Of a stretch of DNA of 64,000 nucleotides, positions 36,541 through 53,742 are shown one piece after another. The translations under genes and the position numbers were made by a program. The stretch's first letter is position 1. Every line of letters starts with the position of its first letter. Below the pieces are notes generated by a model. It saw only the letters and a list, made by a program, of their open reading frames with translations. It was not told where the DNA came from and did no database searches. The stretch is from Clostridia bacterium (GTDB lineage: Bacteria > Bacillota > Clostridia > Oscillospirales > Acutalibacteraceae). The stretch lies in contig JAFTWE010000043.1 in NCBI GenBank assembly GCA_017465465.1, positions 1 through 64,000 on the forward strand, in the 5' to 3' direction.

Positions 36541-36567
36541 AAAAAAAGCACCCAATATGGATGCTTT
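36541..36567 (-). terminator. Terminator of the accessory island
   Basis: AAAGCATCC...GGGTGCTTT with TTTTTTT after it in the minus direction; lies between the last island gene and the ruvC promoter and insulates them. Confidence 0.85.
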
Positions 36568-36593
36568 AATTACTTTTTATGTTGCTATTAATT

Positions 36594-36905
36594 TTATCGA
36601 TTATTTTTCTTTCTGTCTCGCTCTGCTCTCACCGCTTCATGAAACATTTTTACCTCTGCATAATTATTGCAACCGTATTTTTCATACTTGCAAACTCTAT
36701 CTGCCTGTTCTCTTCCTACACTTTTAACATTTTCATGGTGAAGAAGAATCGCCATTGCCGTTCCTGATAAAATTTTATCTAATTCGTCAACAGACAAATC
36801 CTTGAGCTTTTCTATATTGGTTTTAACATCATTTTTAGGTTTTGATAAATAATTAACTACAACCATAATCAAAACGATTGCTATTAAAATAAATACGATA
36901 ACCAT
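36594..36905 (-). CDS. Small membrane-anchored protein of the accessory island
   Basis: 103 residues, not recognised. One N-terminal membrane span (IVFILIAIVLIMVVVNYL), then a soluble part with a short helical LKDLSVDELDKILSGTAM and Cys-containing CKYEKYGCNNYAEVKMFHEA and a charged end RAERDRKKNNR. A good GAAGAGG ribosome site. Sixth and last gene of the JAMM-led operon, 41 bp after the next membrane protein. Could be an effector anchor or simply uncharacterised; no function assigned. Confidence 0.75.
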   Translation of the reverse strand: MVIVFILIAIVLIMVVVNYLSKPKNDVKTNIEKLKDLSVDELDKILSGTAMAILLHHENVKSVGREQADRVCKYEKYGCNNYAEVKMFHEAVRAERDRKKNNR

Positions 36906-36946
36906 TTTTACCTCTTCCGTTGAATCAAAAACACATAAACTGGTTT

Positions 36947-37315
36947 TTAGTTTTTATTTTTTGTTGCTTTTTTTATGTAGAAAATAATTATTTTGATTAC
37001 GCACCAAGCAAAATATACATATCCAACTGCAAGTGCAATAAAGAACATAAAAATAATCCAAAACAGCTTGAAAATGAAATTGCCTATATTGTTTCCAAAA
37101 GAAGAAAGTGAGCTTATAAATTCACGGCCCCACAAAAAGCCAAAAATAACAATACCCAATCCGCCAATAACGGAAAAGAATTCGTTCACTCCGCTTAATG
37201 GCAAGCAAATTGCTCCCACAACAAGAAAAGCTATTGTTCTTTTAAATGTGTTAAAGAAATCATTTTTAAATCCGACACTGAAATCAAACAATACATATTT
37301 AATTTTTTCAATCAT
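36947..37315 (-). CDS. Small polytopic membrane protein of the accessory island
   Basis: 122 residues, not recognised. Three hydrophobic segments: AFLVVGAICLPLSGV...FFSVIGGLGIVIFGFLW and LFWIIFMFFIALAVGYVYFA continuing WCVIKIIIFYI, ending in basic KKATKNKN. I chose ATG 37315 since AAGGAG sits just ahead of an earlier ATG but at proper distance to this one. Fifth gene of the operon. Confidence 0.72.
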   Translation of the reverse strand: MIEKIKYVLFDFSVGFKNDFFNTFKRTIAFLVVGAICLPLSGVNEFFSVIGGLGIVIFGFLWGREFISSLSSFGNNIGNFIFKLFWIIFMFFIALAVGYVYFAWCVIKIIIFYIKKATKNKN

Positions 37316-37336
37316 TACCATTCTCCTTTTATGTTA

Positions 37337-37582
37337 CTAATACATATTCACAGAAATTATCGACCAGCCCTCAAAGCCATCACGATAAAATCCTTTAGAA
37401 TCGTATCCTCCTTCGCCAACAGAACGAAAATATCCCATATAATCATAACCACCTTCGCCTGCTGACCTAAAGTAGCCCTTGGCATCATAGCCACCCTCAC
37501 CGGGTGAACGAAAATAACCCAGGGCATCATAACCGCTTTCACCTCGGGTACGGTAAATACCCTTTCCGTCATAATATCCCAT
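37337..37582 (-). CDS. Protein of tandem 14-residue GYFRS repeats
   Basis: 81 residues, of which 70 (residues 4-73) are five head-to-tail copies of a 14-residue unit, consensus YDxKGYFRSxGEGG; the outer copies diverge (YDGKGIYRTRGESG; YDSKGFYRDGFEGW). Ends WSIISVNMY. No Cys, no membrane span. Similar low-complexity 'YDSKGxYR' proteins occur in Clostridia, function unknown. There is no clear Shine-Dalgarno; the ATG follows the Sel1-protein stop by 7 bp, so translation is likely coupled. Fourth gene of the operon. Confidence 0.75.
   Translation of the reverse strand: MGYYDGKGIYRTRGESGYDALGYFRSPGEGGYDAKGYFRSAGEGGYDYMGYFRSVGEGGYDSKGFYRDGFEGWSIISVNMY
37364..37573 (-). repeat. Five tandem 42-bp coding repeats
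   Basis: In-frame direct repeats encoding the 14-residue units; the three central copies are most alike at DNA level (all contain GGTGAGGG/GGCGAAGG-type and TATGATGCC/TATGAT cores), so copy number could vary by slippage. Confidence 0.7.
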
Positions 37583-37589
37583 ATTTCAT

Positions 37590-38075
37590 TTACAAGATTT
37601 TAACATCTTTAATCATCGTTATTTTTATGCCATCTTTTTTTGTTGAAGTAACTTTAAAATCTTCATTTATCGCTCTTTTTGCTTCTTTCATAAATTCCGG
37701 ATTATTTGTTGTACAATCAGTTGCATCTAAATACCACATATATGAATTATAATCATCAACATGCTGATACGACCAGTGTCCTTTATAGTATAGCGCACCT
37801 GCATAAGAACAGTTGAAATTTTTCATTTTTCTACCCTTGTCGAAATAGCCAATCGCTCTTTGGGGGTCATAACCTACAGAGCTATCCTGCAAAAACATTA
37901 AGCCCAAAGTATAATACTGCTCATAGTTACCATCTGCAGCTCTTCTTTCGAGATTTTGAATTTCCATTTCTTTCGATTTAGGTAGATTGCTGTTTTTCTC
38001 TTTACCTTTTTTAACTCTCTTATCCTCTCTGAATGTAGATAATAAAATCAAAATGCTATCTCCGATAAGTCCCAT
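37590..38075 (-). CDS. Sel1/TPR-like repeat protein
   Basis: 161 residues. A basic, helical head (REDKRVKKGKEKN), then Sel1-like helices with the AAxGNxxAxxxLGxxYxxG spacing: RRAADGNYEQYYTLGLMFLQ, PQRAIGYFDKGRKMKNFNC and AGALYYKGHWSYQ. Sel1 repeats mediate protein contacts. The end (KVTSTKKDGIKITMIKDVKI) is beta-like. ATG preceded by AGGAGG. Third gene of the island operon, after an intercistronic hairpin. Confidence 0.7.
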   Translation of the reverse strand: MGLIGDSILILLSTFREDKRVKKGKEKNSNLPKSKEMEIQNLERRAADGNYEQYYTLGLMFLQDSSVGYDPQRAIGYFDKGRKMKNFNCSYAGALYYKGHWSYQHVDDYNSYMWYLDATDCTTNNPEFMKEAKRAINEDFKVTSTKKDGIKITMIKDVKIL

Positions 38076-38104
38076 ATTTTCTTCCTCCTGTAATCAATCA
38101 ACAA

Positions 38105-38133
38105 TACAGCATTCAACCTAATTGAATGCTGTA
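38105..38133 (-). terminator. Intercistronic hairpin inside the island operon
   Basis: TACAGCATTCAA, loop of 5, TTGAATGCTGTA: a perfect 12-bp stem between the Cys-rich and Sel1 genes, with only TTGTTGATT after it. Likely a partial terminator or mRNA-processing stem giving more of the JAMM and Cys-rich products. Confidence 0.65.
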
Positions 38134-38162
38134 CTTTGAGTCTTTTATAATTACTTATTATA

Positions 38163-38345
38163 TTAACCTTTCCAATGGAAACAGCCGTTTCTGTCCTCAG
38201 GCTTATTGTATCCGCCGTAGCCGCCTTCGCACTTAACTCTGCCGTAGCTGTCTCTGTCGCGGAAATTGGCATAGATACAAGTTGAGCAGTTACCGCCGCA
38301 GAATGTACCTTCGGGCAATTTGATTGTTCTTGAATTTTCTTTCAT
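38163..38345 (-). CDS. Small Cys-rich (probably zinc-binding) protein
   Basis: 60 residues, not recognised as a named family. Cysteines are spaced C-x3-C-x2-C, then C and C: TFCGGNCSTCIYA, VKCEGGYGG and NGCFHWKG. This fits a small metal-binding knuckle. ATG 38345 is preferred to a GTG three codons earlier because AAAGGA is too close to the latter. 21 bp after the JAMM gene, so both are made together. Confidence 0.75.
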   Translation of the reverse strand: MKENSRTIKLPEGTFCGGNCSTCIYANFRDRDSYGRVKCEGGYGGYNKPEDRNGCFHWKG

Positions 38346-38366
38346 TTGATACACATCCTTTAAAAA

Positions 38367-38789
38367 TTATAATAATTGAATTGCGTCATGAAAAATTTGA
38401 ATTTCATCCGCAACAATTAACGCATAATAACTTATTATTTTTTCCTTTGGAATAACTATAGGAAAATACAACTTATCAGTATAACCGCTGATACTTTTCA
38501 TAATTTCATTTATGTATTCAATATCAGCGCTTGATAATGCTTCACAATTATGTGGGTGAGAGTGATAAATCCCCATAAAATCAATATTTTTATTTAGCCA
38601 CTCGTTTATAGTTCTATTAAAAAACACTGTATCAGGCTTATACTTGTATGACGTTTTTATGTCACTCCCCTTGTCACTAACAAATATAGTAACTACTCCG
38701 TTGTGGCCGCCGAGAAGACCTCCGCTTTCGGGTGGCGGGTATAATGTAGAAAATACAATTTCTTCGTATAACTCTTTAGAAATCATCAT
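38367..38789 (-). CDS. JAMM/MPN metallopeptidase (Prok-JAB type)
   Basis: 140 residues with an intact JAMM zinc-protease signature: Glu21 in PPPESGGLLGG, then H76-S-H78-P...S86-x2-D89 in GIYHSHPHNCEALSSAD, the exact H-x-H-x7-S-x2-D spacing. JAMM proteins cleave isopeptide or peptide bonds after ubiquitin-like or other substrates; bacterial ones occur in sulfur-transfer, phage tail and defence settings. Here no E1, E2 or ubiquitin-like gene is adjacent. First gene of a six-gene operon divergent from an XRE regulator, under a near-consensus promoter overlapped by a palindrome. Confidence 0.88.
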   Translation of the reverse strand: MMISKELYEEIVFSTLYPPPESGGLLGGHNGVVTIFVSDKGSDIKTSYKYKPDTVFFNRTINEWLNKNIDFMGIYHSHPHNCEALSSADIEYINEIMKSISGYTDKLYFPIVIPKEKIISYYALIVADEIQIFHDAIQLL

Positions 38790-38821
38790 AAAATATCACT
38801 TATAAGCACGAAAACAACATT

Positions 38822-38842
38822 TGATGTATTCATAATACATCA
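38822..38842. promoter_or_regulatory. Palindromic operator between JAMM operon and XRE regulator
   Basis: TGATGTAT-N5-ATACATCA is a perfect 8+8 dyad; it extends with near-symmetry outwards to AAAACAAC (left) and GTTGTTTT (right), spanning about 43 bp. It overlaps the -10 of the JAMM promoter and lies near the regulator's own promoter, as expected for an XRE-type repressor controlling both. Confidence 0.7.
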
Positions 38843-38860
38843 TTCGTTGTTTTTTGTCAA
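38832..38860 (-). promoter_or_regulatory. Promoter of the JAMM operon
   Basis: Minus strand perfect TTGACA (38860-38855), 17-base spacer, TATTAT (38837-38832); 43 bases before the ATG. Confidence 0.75.
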
Positions 38861-38881
38861 GGTTAAATGTCAGATTATGTA
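38854..38881 (+). promoter_or_regulatory. Possible promoter of the XRE regulator
   Basis: TTGTCA (38854-38859), 16-base spacer, TATGTA (38876-38881); its -35 overlaps the -35 of the divergent promoter. Weak -10. Confidence 0.4.
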
Positions 38882-38905
38882 ATAATAAATTTGAGGTGAT
38901 TTATT

Positions 38906-39121
38906 ATGCATTATTATCCCCGACTTCGAGACCTTAGAGAAGATATGGATTTGACACAAGATGAACTTGTGAAAAGGCTCGGAATGCACAAAACTACTTA
39001 TACCAACTATGAGCAAGGCAAAAGAGAGCCTCCTTTTGATTTAATTATTAAGCTTGCAAAATTTTATAATGTTTCAATTGATTATATTGCAGGATTAACA
39101 GACATTCCAAACAAAAAATAA
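38906..39121 (+). CDS. XRE-family helix-turn-helix regulator
   Basis: 71 residues, a complete single HTH domain: LRDLREDMDLTQDELVKRLG then MHKTTYTNYEQGKREPPFDL and a closing VSIDYIAGLTD. GAGGTGAT precedes the ATG. Divergent from the JAMM operon with a palindrome in the shared promoter region, so the likely role is auto-repression plus repression of the six-gene arm. No sensor domain is fused, so the inducing signal is not evident. Confidence 0.92.
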   Translation: MHYYPRLRDLREDMDLTQDELVKRLGMHKTTYTNYEQGKREPPFDLIIKLAKFYNVSIDYIAGLTDIPNKK

Positions 39122-39153
39122 AAGCAGAACTGAAAATTTCAGTTCTGCTTTTT
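39121..39153. terminator. Bidirectional terminator between XRE regulator and der
   Basis: AAAGCAGAACTGAAA and its 15-base complement followed by TT; convergent genes end on either side. The right border of the island. Confidence 0.85.
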
Positions 39154-44698: not shown

Positions 44699-45850
44699 TC
44701 AATTTTTTGAGAACACAGCCAGCATACGGCGGTAAACCTCCGAAAAAGTGAGCCTTTCAACATAATGAGGAGCAGTCAGCGAGTATGAGCCGACAGTTTC
44801 ACCGTCAAGAGTAACCTTGACCTCACCCAGCACCTGATTGGACTCAACGGGAGCTTCAACGCTTGTGGCAAGGTGAATATCCTGAATAACATCCCCTTTC
44901 CTGCCCTTTGGAACAAGCACGCTTACGGCGGCAGGAATCTGAGGAGTGAGAGTTTTTTCACAGCCCATTGTAACAGTTACATCGGTAATGAGCTTGGGGT
45001 CGATTTCAGGGGTTACGGTTTCCCAGTTTGCAAAGCCGTAATTAAGCATTGCTTTTGCCCCCTCAAAGCGGTCTGAGCTGTTGTCACTGCCAAGCACCAC
45101 GGCAATGAGTGATGTTCCGTCCCTTGTAGCGGTGGCGCACACACAGCAGCCTGCCTTGGAGGTTGTGCCGGTTTTGAGCCCGGTACAGCCTGAATAAAAC
45201 CTGACAAGCTTATTGGTATTTACAAGCTCGGTTTCACCGTTTCTGAGTGAATCCATCCAGATTGTTGTATATTTCTGCACAAAATCGTGGGTCATAAGCT
45301 CACGGGCCATAAGAGCGATATCATAGGCGGTGGTGAGATGATTTTCTGCGGTGTCGTCAAGACCTGTGCAGTTTTCAAAGTTAGTATTTTTCATACCAAG
45401 CTCGCGGGCACGCTCATTCATCATAACAATAAATGCTTCTTCGCTTCCTGCAACATATTCGGCAAGTGCGGCGCAGGCATCATTTGCAGAATAGACCGCC
45501 ATGGCCTTATAAAGCTCATCTACGGTCATAGTCTCCCCCTCTTTGAGCCAGATTTGGGAGCCGCCTTTTTTAACGGCATCTGCACTTGCGGTAACGGTAT
45601 CTGAAAATGAGATTTTACCGCCCTCAAGAGCTTCCGCAACAAGTAGCATAGTCATAATTTTGGTAACAGATGCAGGATAGAGCTTTTGGTTTTCGTTCAT
45701 AGCCATAAGCACCTTGCCGCTGGTTGAGTCCATAAGAATTGCCGCCTTAGCCTTGACCTCAACAGGCATTTTGTTTTCACCAAAGGCAGAAAAAGATGCA
45801 AAAGAAATAACAAAGCAAACACACAAAACAACACTTATAACGCGTTTCAT
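44699..45850 (-). CDS. dacF: D-alanyl-D-alanine carboxypeptidase (DacF/PBP5 type)
   Basis: 383 residues. Signal peptide (KRVISVVLCVCFVISFASFS), then the serine peptidase triad motifs: SxxK in YPASVTKIMTMLL, SxN in VYSANDACA, KTG in GLKTGTTSKAG, and a C-terminal beta domain ending in an amphipathic VERLTFSEVYRRMLAVF membrane-anchoring helix. It trims pentapeptide stems in peptidoglycan, at the membrane outer face. I chose ATG 45850 after GGAGG; upstream in-frame codons read an intergenic repeat. Its ribosome site lies in a predicted hairpin (45858-45884). Confidence 0.94.
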   Translation of the reverse strand: MKRVISVVLCVCFVISFASFSAFGENKMPVEVKAKAAILMDSTSGKVLMAMNENQKLYPASVTKIMTMLLVAEALEGGKISFSDTVTASADAVKKGGSQIWLKEGETMTVDELYKAMAVYSANDACAALAEYVAGSEEAFIVMMNERARELGMKNTNFENCTGLDDTAENHLTTAYDIALMARELMTHDFVQKYTTIWMDSLRNGETELVNTNKLVRFYSGCTGLKTGTTSKAGCCVCATATRDGTSLIAVVLGSDNSSDRFEGAKAMLNYGFANWETVTPEIDPKLITDVTVTMGCEKTLTPQIPAAVSVLVPKGRKGDVIQDIHLATSVEAPVESNQVLGEVKVTLDGETVGSYSLTAPHYVERLTFSEVYRRMLAVFSKN

Positions 45851-45884: not shown

Positions 45885-45905
45885 TGTAGGTAAAATGACT
45901 TAATT

Positions 45906-45921
45906 TTTTCGGCTCCCTTGT
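45906..45921 (+). repeat. Left 16-bp inverted repeat of a putative cassette
   Basis: TTTTCGGCTCCCTTGT, exact reverse complement of 47610-47625. The pair encloses the repeat region and the orphan membrane-protein gene. Confidence 0.75.
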
Positions 45922-46196
45922 GCAAAGGGAGCTGGATTTTTGCGAAGCAAAAAGACTGAGGGATTGTCACCCTGCCAACAAGAAAAACCACCTTTGATAT
46001 TCCATTTTTTCGGGAGAGCACAGAGTCCCTCCCTTACGAGCTCGCTTGCAGGAAATGCGCTTGCCGACATTCCTTGGACTCTATGTTGCGGTGCGACGAA
46101 AATCGCCGCACCCTACTCTCGGTTGAGGGGGGCTGTTATGTATCTCTCCCTCCGTCTTTTGCTACGCAAAATCCACCTCCCTCGTCAGAGGGAGGC
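45911..46196. repeat. Composite intergenic repeat (two inverted copies of a 55-bp module)
   Basis: Module A (about 45911-45965) reads GGCTCCCTTGTGCAAAGGGA then GCTGGATTTTTGCGAAGC then AAAAAGACTGAGGGATT; module B (about 46145-46196) read in reverse gives CCTCCCTCTGACGAGGGAGG, TGGATTTTGCGTAGC, AAAAGACGGAGGG. Same layout, stems diverged. Between them is GGTGCG-N...-CGCACC (about 46091-46111). No gene; about 350 bp of this gap is explained by the element. Similar GGCTCCCTTGT...GACTGAGGGA repeats are, to my knowledge, scattered in Clostridia. Confidence 0.65.
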
Positions 46197-46201
46197 AAAG
46201 A

Positions 46202-46227
46202 AAAGCCGATGCAATGCACCGGCTTTG
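46202..46227 (-). terminator. Hairpin downstream of orphan membrane-protein gene
   Basis: AAAGCCG...CGGCTTT stem with TTTTCTTTG following in the minus direction, 45 bp beyond the stop. Confidence 0.6.
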
Positions 46228-46271
46228 ATAAAACAACAACCCTTTGATAGAAATTCAAGCTCTTCTATTAA

Positions 46272-47411
46272 CTAAAAACAATTTGGACAAGGATAATACC
46301 CTTGATGTTCAGCACCCTCTTTATTGAACGCATAAAAATAATTTCTATCCCAAATGTTACAGTCATACTTGTGATAATAAATTGAAGCATCATCACAAAA
46401 AACAATATAAGAAGAATAAAACACATTTTCATCTTTAATTCTATCATAATCTTTTTTCAGTATATCATACTGATACGAAATACCATAGTAATCATCTTTA
46501 TATTCTTCAAATTCCTTATCACTCGCTATAATATCATTTTTTAAGTTTTCAATCTCAGTAGTTTTTTTTACATATGCGATACCAAGAAAAACAATAGATA
46601 TTGTTAAAGTGACCGACATTATGCTAGTAGCAAACAACACAATTCTTTTCTTATCTACCAAAGATGGCATAGCAATGAACTCGTGCAATTTGATATGAGT
46701 TGTTTCCTTCTCCTTTGGACTTTTAGGAAGTTTAGACCACAATTCCCTTTTAATTTTCTTTCTGTAACTATTATAGTCAAATAAGTTTAAATTATATGGA
46801 GTTACATAGCTACACTGTTCTTTACTTTCTTTTAAAAACATACAGCTGGCAAACTCGTCTATACTTAAAGATTCTCCTTCATAAATTCTCTTTTTCGTTG
46901 GATTTTTATCTGTTATTAATTTGGGCCAAATATTTTTAAAAACATATTCTCGAAAAGCCTCATAATCATCACCGCATTTTAATGCATTTTGATTAAAATA
47001 CTCATTGGTGACAGCATCTTCATTTGACATAATTTCTGTAAGCTCTTCTAAATTATACGATTTACCTTCAAAAACTCTATTAAAATCATCTTTCAAAAAA
47101 TAGACAGTTATAGATGTAGCAATTATCACAAAAAAGTTAAAAATCAAGCTTGCTACAAAAGCCTCTGTTTGCAAACTTTGTATGAGTAAAAGTGATATGA
47201 AATAAGAAAGTAGATACGAAATCACAGTAAAAAAATAAATTCTTTTCTTTTCAGGCTTGAGTTTAATGTGAATCATCAAAACAATCCATATTATATCTGG
47301 ATAAAAAGAATATCCTTGATAATAACTTGGAAGGAACATAAAAACAATCATTACAACAAACATCGGCAAATATGTGATTGCTAAAAATTTTTTGAAGTTC
47401 ATCCTATTCAT
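46272..47411 (-). CDS. Orphan membrane protein with C-terminal Cys/His metal-binding tail
   Basis: 379 residues, not recognised. Four N-terminal membrane spans (LPMFVVMIVFMFLPS; IIWIVLMIHI; FFTVISYLLSYFISLLLI; LIFNFFVIIATSITVYFL), a cytoplasmic region of about 130 residues (EGKSYNLEELTEIM and the similar EGESLSIDEFASCMF, an internal duplication), a fifth span (FATSIMSVTLTISIVFLGIA), a coiled-coil (TEIENLKNDIIASDKEFEEY) and an end YYHKYDCNIWD...GYYPCPNCF, an Ada-type H-x3-C...C-x2-C zinc site. AT-rich relative to neighbours. Start may be 47411 or 47402. Lies inside 16-bp inverted repeats. Confidence 0.75.
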   Translation of the reverse strand: MNRMNFKKFLAITYLPMFVVMIVFMFLPSYYQGYSFYPDIIWIVLMIHIKLKPEKKRIYFFTVISYLLSYFISLLLIQSLQTEAFVASLIFNFFVIIATSITVYFLKDDFNRVFEGKSYNLEELTEIMSNEDAVTNEYFNQNALKCGDDYEAFREYVFKNIWPKLITDKNPTKKRIYEGESLSIDEFASCMFLKESKEQCSYVTPYNLNLFDYNSYRKKIKRELWSKLPKSPKEKETTHIKLHEFIAMPSLVDKKRIVLFATSIMSVTLTISIVFLGIAYVKKTTEIENLKNDIIASDKEFEEYKDDYYGISYQYDILKKDYDRIKDENVFYSSYIVFCDDASIYYHKYDCNIWDRNYFYAFNKEGAEHQGYYPCPNCF

Positions 47412-47609
47412 ATCTCCATTCTCTCCAATCCAAATCCTTTTTCAAAGGCAATAATTTCAATATCTACGTTTTCAAAAGCAGATACACCTTATATTCAGAT
47501 TATACCACCCAAATTCTCTTTGTCAACAAGCGCATTGGGGTCTACATTGTCAGCTAACCTACATTGGTTTCGACTGATGCCCGCTGCGCCCCTACGAGGT
47601 TTACTCAAT
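47412..47609. other. Intergenic region, repeat debris
   Basis: No gene seen. The stretch TGATGCCCGCTGCGCCCCTACGAG-like region (about 47575-47600) is GC-rich and unlike its AT-rich surroundings, and looks like the eroded inner part of the same repeat family as 45911-46196. Confidence 0.45.
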
Positions 47610-47625
47610 ACAAGGGAGCCGAAAA
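47610..47625 (-). repeat. Right 16-bp inverted repeat of a putative cassette
   Basis: ACAAGGGAGCCGAAAA, exact complement of 45906-45921. Confidence 0.75.
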
Positions 47626-47631
47626 TAGTTA

Positions 47632-47661
47632 TTGATTTTATATACTAATTTATGGTATAAT
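47632..47661 (+). promoter_or_regulatory. Promoter of the mutarotase-HAD-mfd operon
   Basis: TTGATT (47632-47637), 18-base spacer, perfect TATAAT (47656-47661), right after the inverted repeat. Confidence 0.6.
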
Positions 47662-47689
47662 TTTATGAACATTTTTTAGGAGTGGTTTT

Positions 47690-48547
47690 ATGAAATTTGA
47701 AGCTAAAAACGGCAAATTATCAATCAGCGTCAAGAAGTACGGTGCAGAGCTTTCTTCTGTTAAATCTCTTGACACAGGTTTTGAATATCTCTGGCAGGGC
47801 AACCCCGATATCTGGTACGGTCAGTCACCTGTCCTTTTTCCCATTGTAGGCACTCTTTACCAGAACAAATATTATGTTGACGGCAAGGAATATGAAATGT
47901 TCCGCCACGGCATTGCAAGAAAAAGAGATTTTGAATTAAAAGAGCAGGGTGAAGACTACATAGTTCTTACTCAGAAATATAACGAAGAAACCTTGAAGGT
48001 TTACCCTTACAGATATGTATTTGATATTGAGTTCAGACTCGACGGCAAAAAGCTCACAGTTACCCACACAATCAAAAACGAGGGCGACGGCGATATGTTT
48101 TTTTCAATCGGCGCTCATCCCGGCTTTAACTGCCAGCTTGATGATGTGCTTGAATTTGACACGGTTGAGGATGAAGTTATCAACGAAATGATTGACGAGG
48201 ATGCTGTTATTATCAGAAAGCACTTCCCCTCTCCTATTGACGGAAAAATCTTCACAATTACCAAAAACATTTTTGACGCTGACGCTCATGTGCTTTCAAA
48301 TCTCAAATCCAAAATCTGCACTCTTAAAGGCAAAAATCTCCCCGGTGATGTTGAATTTACCTTTGGTGACTGCTCTTTCCTCGGCCTTTGGGCTAAGCCC
48401 GGCGCACCTTATGTTTGCATTGAGCCTTGGTACGGTGTAAACGATTTTGGCGAAAAGACCGATGATTTTTCACAAAAGAGAGCCATTGAGAAAATTTCAG
48501 CCGATGAAGAATTCAGCTTTAGCTGGAGCGCTGAAATCAAGGAGTAA
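47690..48547 (+). CDS. Aldose 1-epimerase family protein (LacX-like mutarotase)
   Basis: 285 residues. Galactose-mutarotase fold; phrases YGAELSSVKSLDTGFEYLWQ, FPIVGTLYQNKYYVDGKEYE, MFRHGIARKRDF, FSIGAHPGFNCQL and IEPWYGVNDF mark the LacX-like subgroup. The catalytic His of FRHGIAR and GAHPGF are present. It interconverts anomers of an undetermined hexose. AGGAG precedes the ATG; first of a four-gene operon. Confidence 0.88.
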   Translation: MKFEAKNGKLSISVKKYGAELSSVKSLDTGFEYLWQGNPDIWYGQSPVLFPIVGTLYQNKYYVDGKEYEMFRHGIARKRDFELKEQGEDYIVLTQKYNEETLKVYPYRYVFDIEFRLDGKKLTVTHTIKNEGDGDMFFSIGAHPGFNCQLDDVLEFDTVEDEVINEMIDEDAVIIRKHFPSPIDGKIFTITKNIFDADAHVLSNLKSKICTLKGKNLPGDVEFTFGDCSFLGLWAKPGAPYVCIEPWYGVNDFGEKTDDFSQKRAIEKISADEEFSFSWSAEIKE

Positions 48548-52100: not shown

Positions 52101-52647
52101 CGGCACTCAACAGCACGGTCACATGGAAACTGTGGGTTATGACTTATATATGAAAATGCTCAATCAGGCAGTTGGTGAAGAAAAGGGCGAATTACAGCCC
52201 GCTCCGGAGAAAGAGTGTCTTATCGACCTTCCAATTGATGCATATATTCCCCCTGACTACATCAAGAGTGTTCCCAACAAAATTGCTATGTACCGAAGAA
52301 TCGCCGACATCAGAACAAGAGATGATGCCGACGATGTTATGGATGAGCTTATTGACCGTTTCGGCGAGCCGCCTATGAGCGTTCAGGGGCTTATCACCGT
52401 TGCGCTTATGAGAAACACGGCACTTGCTCAGGGTATTTATGAAATAGGCAAATCAGGCAACAAAATTAACCTTTATATCGACAGCCTTGATATGAACAAA
52501 ATCACCGCCCTTGCTTCTAAAATGCGCGGCAGGATAACTGTTGCGGCGGCTGGAAAGCCTCATATTGCAATTAAACTGAACCCGGGCGAAGAACAGCTTG
52601 TCATCCTCAAAAAAGCATTGGAAATTATGGAAAAGAGTACGAATTAA
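49174..52647 (+). CDS. mfd: Transcription-repair coupling factor Mfd
   Basis: 1157 residues. UvrB-homology N-terminus (GSGQFSVRGGIVDLFSPDSE), CarD-like RNA polymerase-interaction domain (GDYIVHVNHGIGIFDGI about 495), RecG-like translocase with Walker A CGDVGFGKTEVALRA, DEEQ box IIIDEEQRFGV, TLSATPIPRTLNMAM, motif VI HQLRGRVGRSARRA, and the C-terminal TRCF domain (LIDLPIDAYIPPDYIKSVPN). Displaces stalled polymerase and recruits UvrA. Complete. AGGAG precedes the ATG. Confidence 0.97.
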   Translation: MSFFSKALKGTSEYQSLLKGITSNRLPLGVLGLTQIHKAHLVSSMCEQFAPRVAIVITSDESQANRLCKDLNAFGCNALLYPAGDISLRSTQIKSREYEHKRLSVLGNLLDGNADAVVLSVEAALQLTIPPEELYSRRIHLAVGEDITIEELSQKLRRSGYSFCENVEGSGQFSVRGGIVDLFSPDSELPFRIDFWGDTVDSISLFETDSQRRVNQIDEITITPANEICCDTDELIEKIEAFLQTVKGKGSVKVKESLQKDIEQLKAGITLPSLDRYLPLVYEDCSTVFDYIERPLFFVSESFSVKDRANAALQLFNEEYKAYLEEGTVCKGLDRYIITWNEMLTFYEDLGVIYLDNLARGSFDTPTKELITFNARQISPWNGTFSVLKDDLQPIYNRKGQTIVIMSGTQKVASNLSDDLIAEGYDSLYFEKVPEVVPEGKIIVLPGGFSSGFEYPNAKFTVFTYGSREALPVAKSKKKVNKAAVFNSLEELHKGDYIVHVNHGIGIFDGITQLEADGNVKDYIKIKYDKGDVLYVPVTQLDQVSKYIGPNSDSHTLKLNRLGGKEWNKTRSRVRASVKDMAKELIELYSKRINMPGYAFSPDIDMQNDFERRFEYDETDDQLRCIDEIKTDMEKSHPMDRLLCGDVGFGKTEVALRAAFKCAADGKQCAILVPTTILALQHYQTIRKRFEGFPIEAQMLSRFVSAKDQEQIKADLKKGYIDILVGTHRLISKDIQFRDLGLIIIDEEQRFGVAQKEKLKAAYPNVDVLTLSATPIPRTLNMAMSGIRDMSILEEAPQDRHPVQTYVIEHNMEVLVQAMANELRRGGQVYYLHNRTETITKVAAKIKEMMPDANVAYAHGQMTEEKLSSIWKNLLEGETDILVCTTIIETGVDVPNVNTLIVENADRMGLSQLHQLRGRVGRSARRASAYFTFTRGKELSEIAAKRLTAIREYTEFGSGFKIAMRDLEIRGAGNILGTQQHGHMETVGYDLYMKMLNQAVGEEKGELQPAPEKECLIDLPIDAYIPPDYIKSVPNKIAMYRRIADIRTRDDADDVMDELIDRFGEPPMSVQGLITVALMRNTALAQGIYEIGKSGNKINLYIDSLDMNKITALASKMRGRITVAAAGKPHIAIKLNPGEEQLVILKKALEIMEKSTN

Positions 52648-52665
52648 AGTTAAGGAGTGTTTAAT

Positions 52666-53739
52666 ATGACCCCTGCACTTAAGCAAAGAAATTCTGCAAT
52701 GGAACTTTTGCGGATTCTTGCAATGTTTTTGATTATATTTTCCCACTACATTTCCCACGGAACAGGAGAAAATTTAGACGGTTCATTCAACAGCATAATT
52801 ACTTTATTGTTTCAGACAGGAAACATCGGAACAGACATTTTTATTTTACTTTCAGGTTATTTCCTGATTAACTCAAAATTCAGCTTCAAAAAAGTTTTTA
52901 CACTTATTTTTCAAGTTGTTTTCTACAGTATATGTTTTTATGCCGTTTGCCTTTTAACATCGGCTCACAGCTTTTCGTTTAGCGATACTATAACGGCATT
53001 CTTACCCACAAGCTTTTCTCTATATTGGTTTTTTACCACATATATTGTAATGTATCTTCTCTCACCTTTTGTGAATAAATTTTTGAACTCTGTTTCAAAA
53101 GAAACGCATCTTAAGGTTTTATTGGCTACAACATTTCTGTGGGTCATTCTGCCAACATTTACCACAAGAAGCTTTGCAGGCAGTGAGCTGACGCTGTTTT
53201 TAACTTTATATATAATCGGTGCTTATATAAGGAAATATCCGAATAACCTCCTTACCAAAAACAGAAACGATATAATTCTTATTGTTTTATGCACTTGCTT
53301 TATCGCTGTTTTTGCCTTAGGTGTTTTAAAAATTATGCCTTCTTTTGCAGAATATGCCACATATTTTTACAGCAGACAATCTTTATTTGTTGTTTTACTC
53401 TCAGCAGGCTTGCTGTCATTCTTTTCAAAAATCAAACCGTTCTGTTCAAAAGCACTCAACACGGTTTCAGGAACAATTTTTGGAATTTATCTTATTCACG
53501 ATAACCGATTTTTCAGAGGTTTTATGTGGAACGAAATATTTGAAACCGATAAATTCGGCACAGGCAATTTTATATTAGTACACATGCTCTGTTGCGCTGT
53601 TACCGTGTTTGTTGCGTGCTTTGTAATTGAATTTATAAGAAATAAGATAATTGAAAAGCCAGTATTGATTTTATATGATAAGGTTTATGATAAGTTAAGC
53701 CCAAAGATTTCATCTGTATTGAAAAAGATTTCTGAATAG
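52666..53739 (+). CDS. Acyltransferase 3 family membrane protein
   Basis: 357 residues, about ten membrane spans. N-terminal ELLRILAMFLIIFSHYISHG carries the conserved R and H of OafA/WecH-type acyltransferases that modify cell-wall or surface glycans. C-terminal GIYLIHDNRFFRGFMWNEIF closes the family pattern. ATG 52666 has AAGGAG; an upstream GTG overlaps the Shine-Dalgarno. Last of the operon, 18 bp after mfd. Substrate unknown. Confidence 0.87.
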   Translation: MTPALKQRNSAMELLRILAMFLIIFSHYISHGTGENLDGSFNSIITLLFQTGNIGTDIFILLSGYFLINSKFSFKKVFTLIFQVVFYSICFYAVCLLTSAHSFSFSDTITAFLPTSFSLYWFFTTYIVMYLLSPFVNKFLNSVSKETHLKVLLATTFLWVILPTFTTRSFAGSELTLFLTLYIIGAYIRKYPNNLLTKNRNDIILIVLCTCFIAVFALGVLKIMPSFAEYATYFYSRQSLFVVLLSAGLLSFFSKIKPFCSKALNTVSGTIFGIYLIHDNRFFRGFMWNEIFETDKFGTGNFILVHMLCCAVTVFVACFVIEFIRNKIIEKPVLILYDKVYDKLSPKISSVLKKISE

Positions 53740-53742
53740 CAA

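Follow-up and report, generated by a model that had tools for sequence, protein, structure and literature searches.

The window analysed here comprises 64,000 nucleotides of a Clostridia genome (G000; 2.47 Mb in 54 contigs, 97.7% complete) and has an overall GC content of 40.5%. The site under study lies between a dacF-like D-Ala-D-Ala carboxypeptidase gene on the left (44699..45850, minus strand; Peptidase_S11, 3.5e-75) and an aldose 1-epimerase (mutarotase) gene on the right (47690..48547, plus strand; PF01263, 4.5e-22). The mutarotase gene is preceded by a promoter-like site, TTGATT-18-TATAAT (47632..47661, plus strand), that is also present in G008, the nearest relative (a sister species, with a genome 86% complete and 5% contaminated), in which dacF is 91% and the mutarotase 90-93% identical. 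Between these neighbours, the ORF list gives an orphan gene of 379 aa on the minus strand (46272..47411), whose GC content of 28.1% is the lowest among the window's 43 ATG-started ORFs of at least 200 aa. The protein has no match above cut-off among the Pfam and NCBIfam models, in keeping with the preliminary description of a single AT-rich gene of unknown family; the composition of the gene is unlike that of its neighbours. The gene carries its own promoter-like site, a perfect TTGACA-16-TATAAT with TG (12/12 in the consensus scan; 47499..47526, minus strand), in a region that holds 8 promoter-like sites against 7.7 expected in shuffles. Downstream, a terminator-like hairpin with an 11-pair stem (46202..46226, minus strand; z -4.25) is followed by TTTTCTTT; the consensus scan does not list this hairpin.

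The orphan protein is laid out as N-terminal hydrophobic spans, a duplicated middle, one further span, a coiled-coil-like stretch and an HxxxC...CxxC tail, with the hydrophobic spans at approximately residues 6-30, 58-107 and 256-282. Its internal duplication, already remarked on in the preliminary description, has a score of 66, where 1000 shuffles give no more than 47, and a single-sequence structure prediction reaches a pLDDT of 42. The searches made found no full-length relative of the protein; the gene was not found in 39 other genomes, of which 17 belong to the same genus, and a scan of GTDB contigs that relies on short exact peptide patterns returned no relative. Matches at E ≤0.01 occur in 15 of 394 genomes of the order, the window's own included. 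The match covers the tail in 8 of the 14 other genomes, at 26-38% identity, and the remaining ones are weak and fall outside it. In distant proteins the tail is joined to differing N-terminal parts. The orphan product is probably anchored in a membrane, with a tail that would bind zinc. Bearers of the tail (L102-L107, L109 and L111) include a zinc-ribbon protein and L105, which is nuclease-like by reading of its sequence. The orphan gene matches no DUF559 model, and PADLOC, PDB sequences, phages and plasmids gave no usable match for the site. Two further candidates were taken as chance: a sub-threshold Rfam match inside the orphan ORF, and a weak match of residues 75-235 to L108, at a place that has an HTH regulator domain.

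We interrogated the two 16-bp repeats that bracket this gene. The sequence TTTTCGGCTCCCTTGT occupies 45906-45921 on the plus strand and its exact inverted copy lies at 47610-47625, ending 6 bp short of the -35 element of the mutarotase promoter-like site; the perfect pair and its abutment on the next operon's promoter are thus as first described. Allowing up to 3 mismatches, the 16-mer occurs 4 times in the window, against a shuffled-window mean of 0.52. Genome-wide there are 4 exact copies, two of which are the studied pair, and 8 copies with at most 1 mismatch, while a reversed-pattern control gives 0 matches. An exact inverted pair within 1.7 kb would be expected approximately 0.004 times by a hand estimate that assumes uniform placement, and since the repeats are not uniformly placed this figure is only a rough guide. 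As to the proposed check for the same 16-mer pairs around other genes, the genome has no second inverted pair at most 5 kb apart with at most 1 mismatch.

The 16-mers are the outer ends of two copies from a dispersed, hairpin-ended repeat family with copies throughout the genome, which agrees with the earlier derivation of both ends from a widespread intergenic repeat. On the left, an arm at 45905..45967 (plus strand) consists of a hairpin, a second hairpin and a tail, GAGGGATTGT; stretches with 97% identity to it recur at other genomic places, its predicted fold consists of two hairpins (z -3.11), and the consensus scan also lists it as terminator-like on the plus strand. An inverted partner arm of another subtype (46142..46204, minus strand; fold z -3.65; 97% match to C43:1641-1703) closes this left unit, and its outer end overlaps the T-run behind the orphan gene's terminator-like hairpin. 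By the arm pattern, 45913 on the plus strand faces 46174-46194 on the minus strand, with a hairpin-to-hairpin distance of 282 bp. The interior of the unit (45968..46141) has partial matches to contigs C50, C43, C11, C47 and others, and the left block as a whole (45895-46225) has 44 matches in the genome, a count that includes itself and some places matched by both arms. Because the left unit is complete, the left 16-mer is already partnered at 46142-46204 before the orphan gene is reached. On the right, the repeat is a 16-bp arm stub (47610..47625, minus strand, recognised by the 16-mer match) that lacks the inner half of its hairpin and shows no significant fold (z -0.14). Upstream of the orphan gene, a GC-richer remainder (47527..47609) resembles degraded repeat material; GC content over 47527-47625 is 51.5%, and 47410-47690 has its self-match alone in the genome. 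A regular-expression scan of the window gave no other hairpins of the same type. The bracket is therefore lopsided, with a complete unit of approximately 300 bp at the left and a 16-bp stub at the right.

In the genus, the arm pattern finds 186 arms in 14 of 18 genomes, 22 of them in the window's genome. Arm pairs were counted by eye among 150 of the 186 arms, from 12 of the 14 arm-bearing genomes (none from G005 and G016, 7 of 9 from G004). These listed arms form 13 facing pairs no more than 6 kb apart: 8 of 112-143 bp, the left unit of the window with its 282 bp, and 4 of 441-470 bp, every one of which holds a DUF559 match. None of the 13 pairs encloses a further gene of such a size. Mixed and nested units occur at other places.

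To follow the family between genomes, we took ten repeat sites of G000 by their flanks and placed seven in G008. At L033/L114, a stretch of approximately 200 bp with a unit is present in G000 and absent at the same junction in G008; no target duplication is evident, and the indel carries extra flanking bases. At L048/L118, a DUF559 unit in G008 stands opposite a lone hairpin in G000, which could reflect either a unit that collapsed into a solo hairpin or an insertion within the loop of a hairpin. At L045/L119, 103 bp of a unit correspond to a different 1.05-kb insert; L008/L115 is unchanged, with its lone hairpin conserved; and at L023/L113, L029/L117 and L030/L116 the alignment is lost at or near the repeat. 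In addition, L060 and L150 have an arm by the same downstream gene with differing upstream content in two genomes. The family thus looks mobile; the compared sites were picked for holding repeats and so do not prove that the repeats cause turnover. As a separate observation, the lone hairpin of L048 (G000:C28:49515), set against L118 (G008:C13), resembles two joined outer half-arms.

We next consider the gene that recurs between such arms. DUF559 matches number 37 and occur in 14 of the 18 genus genomes. Using a pattern-free inverted-repeat test, which replaced the first arm pattern because that pattern missed diverged arms, we examined 58 DUF559 loci among L053-L082 and L120-L148. Seven of the 37 genus matches and L077 (a partial domain in a long ORF) had been excluded before the count, and the set from other genera is the first 30 loci minus L060, which was already counted. 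Inverted arms within 300 bp, at a score of at least 13, flank 18 of 29 loci in the genus and 22 of 29 in 24 other genera of the order; controls gave 0/27 (genus, flanks 500-800 bp farther out) and 0/22, respectively. Pooled, a DUF559 gene lies between inverted hairpin arms at 40 of 58 loci against 0 of 49 controls, with a threshold that was chosen after the scores were known, the top control being 11 in both sets, and with loci that are partly non-independent (L130/L131 and L062/L073 have identical arms). A rerun with slightly different gene ends gave 38/58, with 0/58 for shuffled flanks and 0/9 for mutarotase loci. Arm sequences vary by genome, but by eye the hairpin, often a second hairpin, and a short tail are kept. 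These results suggest that the arm-flanked loci are DUF559-linked miniature elements. A DUF559 locus of the window's genome (G000:C42:31543-31987; L036, L073) has a copy with an internal stop.

PMC9403480 assigns DUF559 to the EDxHD homing family, and PMC12907096 counts it among Vsr-like endonucleases; the latter source ties such a protein to a DNA damage response in Caulobacter cells without a methyltransferase. A DUF559 gene just upstream of a mam gene in Faecalibacterium prausnitzii A2-165 is described in PMC8836110. We found no report of DUF559 genes between hairpin repeats in the accessible parts of the open-licence literature. Since DUF559 genes often lie between the same kind of arms, DUF559 endonucleases are most likely the movers of the repeat family, a role that we infer. 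Against this stands the fact that arms and DUF559 genes are not always in the same genomes: each occurs in 14 of 18, and the two sets differ. G001 (15 arms, 95% complete) and G005 (1 arm) have arms without a DUF559 match, and G006 (1) and G007 (3) have DUF559 matches without an arm of the pattern used; in these two genomes the arms may differ in sequence from the pattern. The internal stop of the G000:C42 copy also speaks against DUF559 as the mover.

We then compared the site itself with G008. There, a spacer of 257 bp without the orphan gene separates dacF from the mutarotase gene on a single contig, which is the arrangement that the preliminary description had proposed to look for. The G008 spacer contains a different 144-bp insert; an alignment of repeat modules common to this insert and the window's right remainder was set aside as not significant (123 of 2000 shuffles reach its score). 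Directly ahead of the shared promoter-like site, G008 has GAGCCTAAAA at the same right-hand base as the window's GAGCCGAAAA. As this stub-like end stands at the same base in a genome without the gene, the repeat end at that base is probably older than the orphan gene, although the shared stub measures approximately 10 bases and could be of convergent origin. One relative was found with the junction kept, so gain or loss is judged only by the gene's absence from the 39 other genomes.

The window and G008 are collinear over 35.3-57.2 kb (approximately 22 kb, spread over two G008 contigs), and this block contains three gene-content differences: 36567-39150, the studied site and 52634-53742. Their inverted-repeat scores are 10, 16 and 8, respectively, and the scores of 10 and 8 are inside the control range of the DUF559-locus test. 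The existence of two nearby differences without repeats indicates that such gene turnover also occurs here without the repeats. The first of them is a 2.6-kb stretch of four AT-rich ORFs (103-161 aa) that is absent from G008 and has no flanking repeats of this type; the other is an AT-rich 357-aa ORF, membrane-protein-like by eye and also absent from G008, directly after mfd. The ORFs at both places have 30-33% GC.

Taken together, we favour, at a probability of roughly 60%, a reading in which an AT-rich accessory gene was gained in a repeat-colonised dacF-mutarotase spacer and the repeats were probably not its carrier. Small hairpin-ended units, most likely mobilised by Vsr-like, EDxHD-type DUF559 endonucleases, would have colonised the spacer, the right stub probably being present before the orphan gene came. 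The window's lineage would then have gained the gene, equipped with a promoter-like and a terminator-like site of its own, in an event resembling the nearby gene gains or losses without repeats. Both this order of events and the independence of the gain from the repeats are what we infer from the comparison. The points against this reading include, besides the incompleteness of G008, the one relative found with the junction, two findings: the homology between the window and G008 stops at a repeat end both on the left (45900) and on the right (47616), as a cassette would also give, and the outer ends are of one subtype over 16/16 bases while the arm at 46204 is of another.

The main rival is a gene nested in one older unit. 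In this reading, a single resident unit would have reached from 45906 to 47625, and a second arm and the gene would have arrived later, so that the bracket is real and the gene is its guest, not its cargo. The two ends are indeed alike in subtype and in their T-rich outer flank, the stub-like end at the same base in G008 suggests that the right end predates the gene, and mixed or nested units are known at other places. However, the left arm is already partnered at 46204 and the right arm has no inner half. Two further arms carry the exact 16-mer and the flank outside it as well, so the end-to-end match is weak evidence for a single unit. We regard the nested arrangement as fairly unlikely.

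Less probable still is the cassette of the preliminary description, in which the gene would be cargo between terminal inverted repeats, with a DUF559 protein or another enzyme moving it in trans. Part of that proposal stands: the gene is absent from G008, and the ends come from a dispersed family. The exact inverted ends coincide with both breakpoints, and DUF559 genes do occur between such arms. What is not supported is the role of the ends as the gene's carrier, as the left end is already paired at 46204, the right end has been truncated to a stub, and G008 has a stub-like end without the gene. Among the arms listed, moreover, only 4 of 13 close pairs are gene-sized and all four hold DUF559; no target duplication, for which the preliminary description had proposed to look, flanks the outer ends 45906/47625 by eye; and the two similar gene-content differences have no repeats. 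The self-contained left unit, the right stub, the G008 stub and the repeat-free differences nearby therefore do not support a cassette as the main account, and we consider it improbable. Entry of the 1.7 kb into the loop of a solo hairpin, with the 16-mers as its halves, is the least probable of all and very improbable. In its favour, the two halves put together would give a perfect 32-bp palindrome, a lone hairpin stands opposite a DUF559 unit at L048/L118, and another is conserved at L008/L115. Against it, a canonical arm extends from the left half, and the perfect form is rare: 2 of 18 genomes, G000 not among them, have it at a single place each, and one of these places (L150) runs on as an ordinary arm. 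The pattern used for this count would not detect the lone hairpins at L048 and L008.

As a gene, the orphan seems to be one among several AT-rich genes here that are specific to the lineage, and the DUF559-hairpin family is the part that matters more. Such a family would be frequent in the searched order and would give arm-flanked DUF559 genes a testable function. One speculative possibility, to which we attach little credence, is that DUF559 cuts at hairpin arms in spacers and that break repair between dispersed arms copies the intervening DNA, sometimes with passenger genes. Throughout this bacterial order, accessory genes would then be exchanged at the arms, with the copied content mostly a nuclease gene or nothing and occasionally a passenger like the orphan.

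Compared with known systems, the orphan gene lacks the two complete matching ends of a transposon or cassette with terminal inverted repeats, and the same ends were not found around other copies or other cargo, in the genome or among the arms listed. The hairpin family itself consists of short multicopy elements with inverted ends (112-282 bp between hairpins) and in this resembles MITEs, by the size and end definition in PMC3733652. It differs from MITEs in that its ends are hairpins, often double, and in that the gene found linked to it is no classical transposase gene; it may also differ in target duplication, none being evident at one indel pair or, by eye, at the outer ends here. It also resembles REP/REPIN sequences with their RAYT genes, described in the same source as short multicopy extragenic hairpins in inverted pairs with an enzyme gene that is often hairpin-flanked. 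RAYT is a tyrosine transposase, whereas the gene found with these hairpins, DUF559, encodes a Vsr-like nuclease; and in contrast to EDxHD or Vsr-like homing endonucleases, the tested loci have the DUF559 gene between hairpin arms. A REP- or MITE-like family linked to a Vsr-like nuclease instead of a transposase would represent a novel variation among miniature mobile elements.
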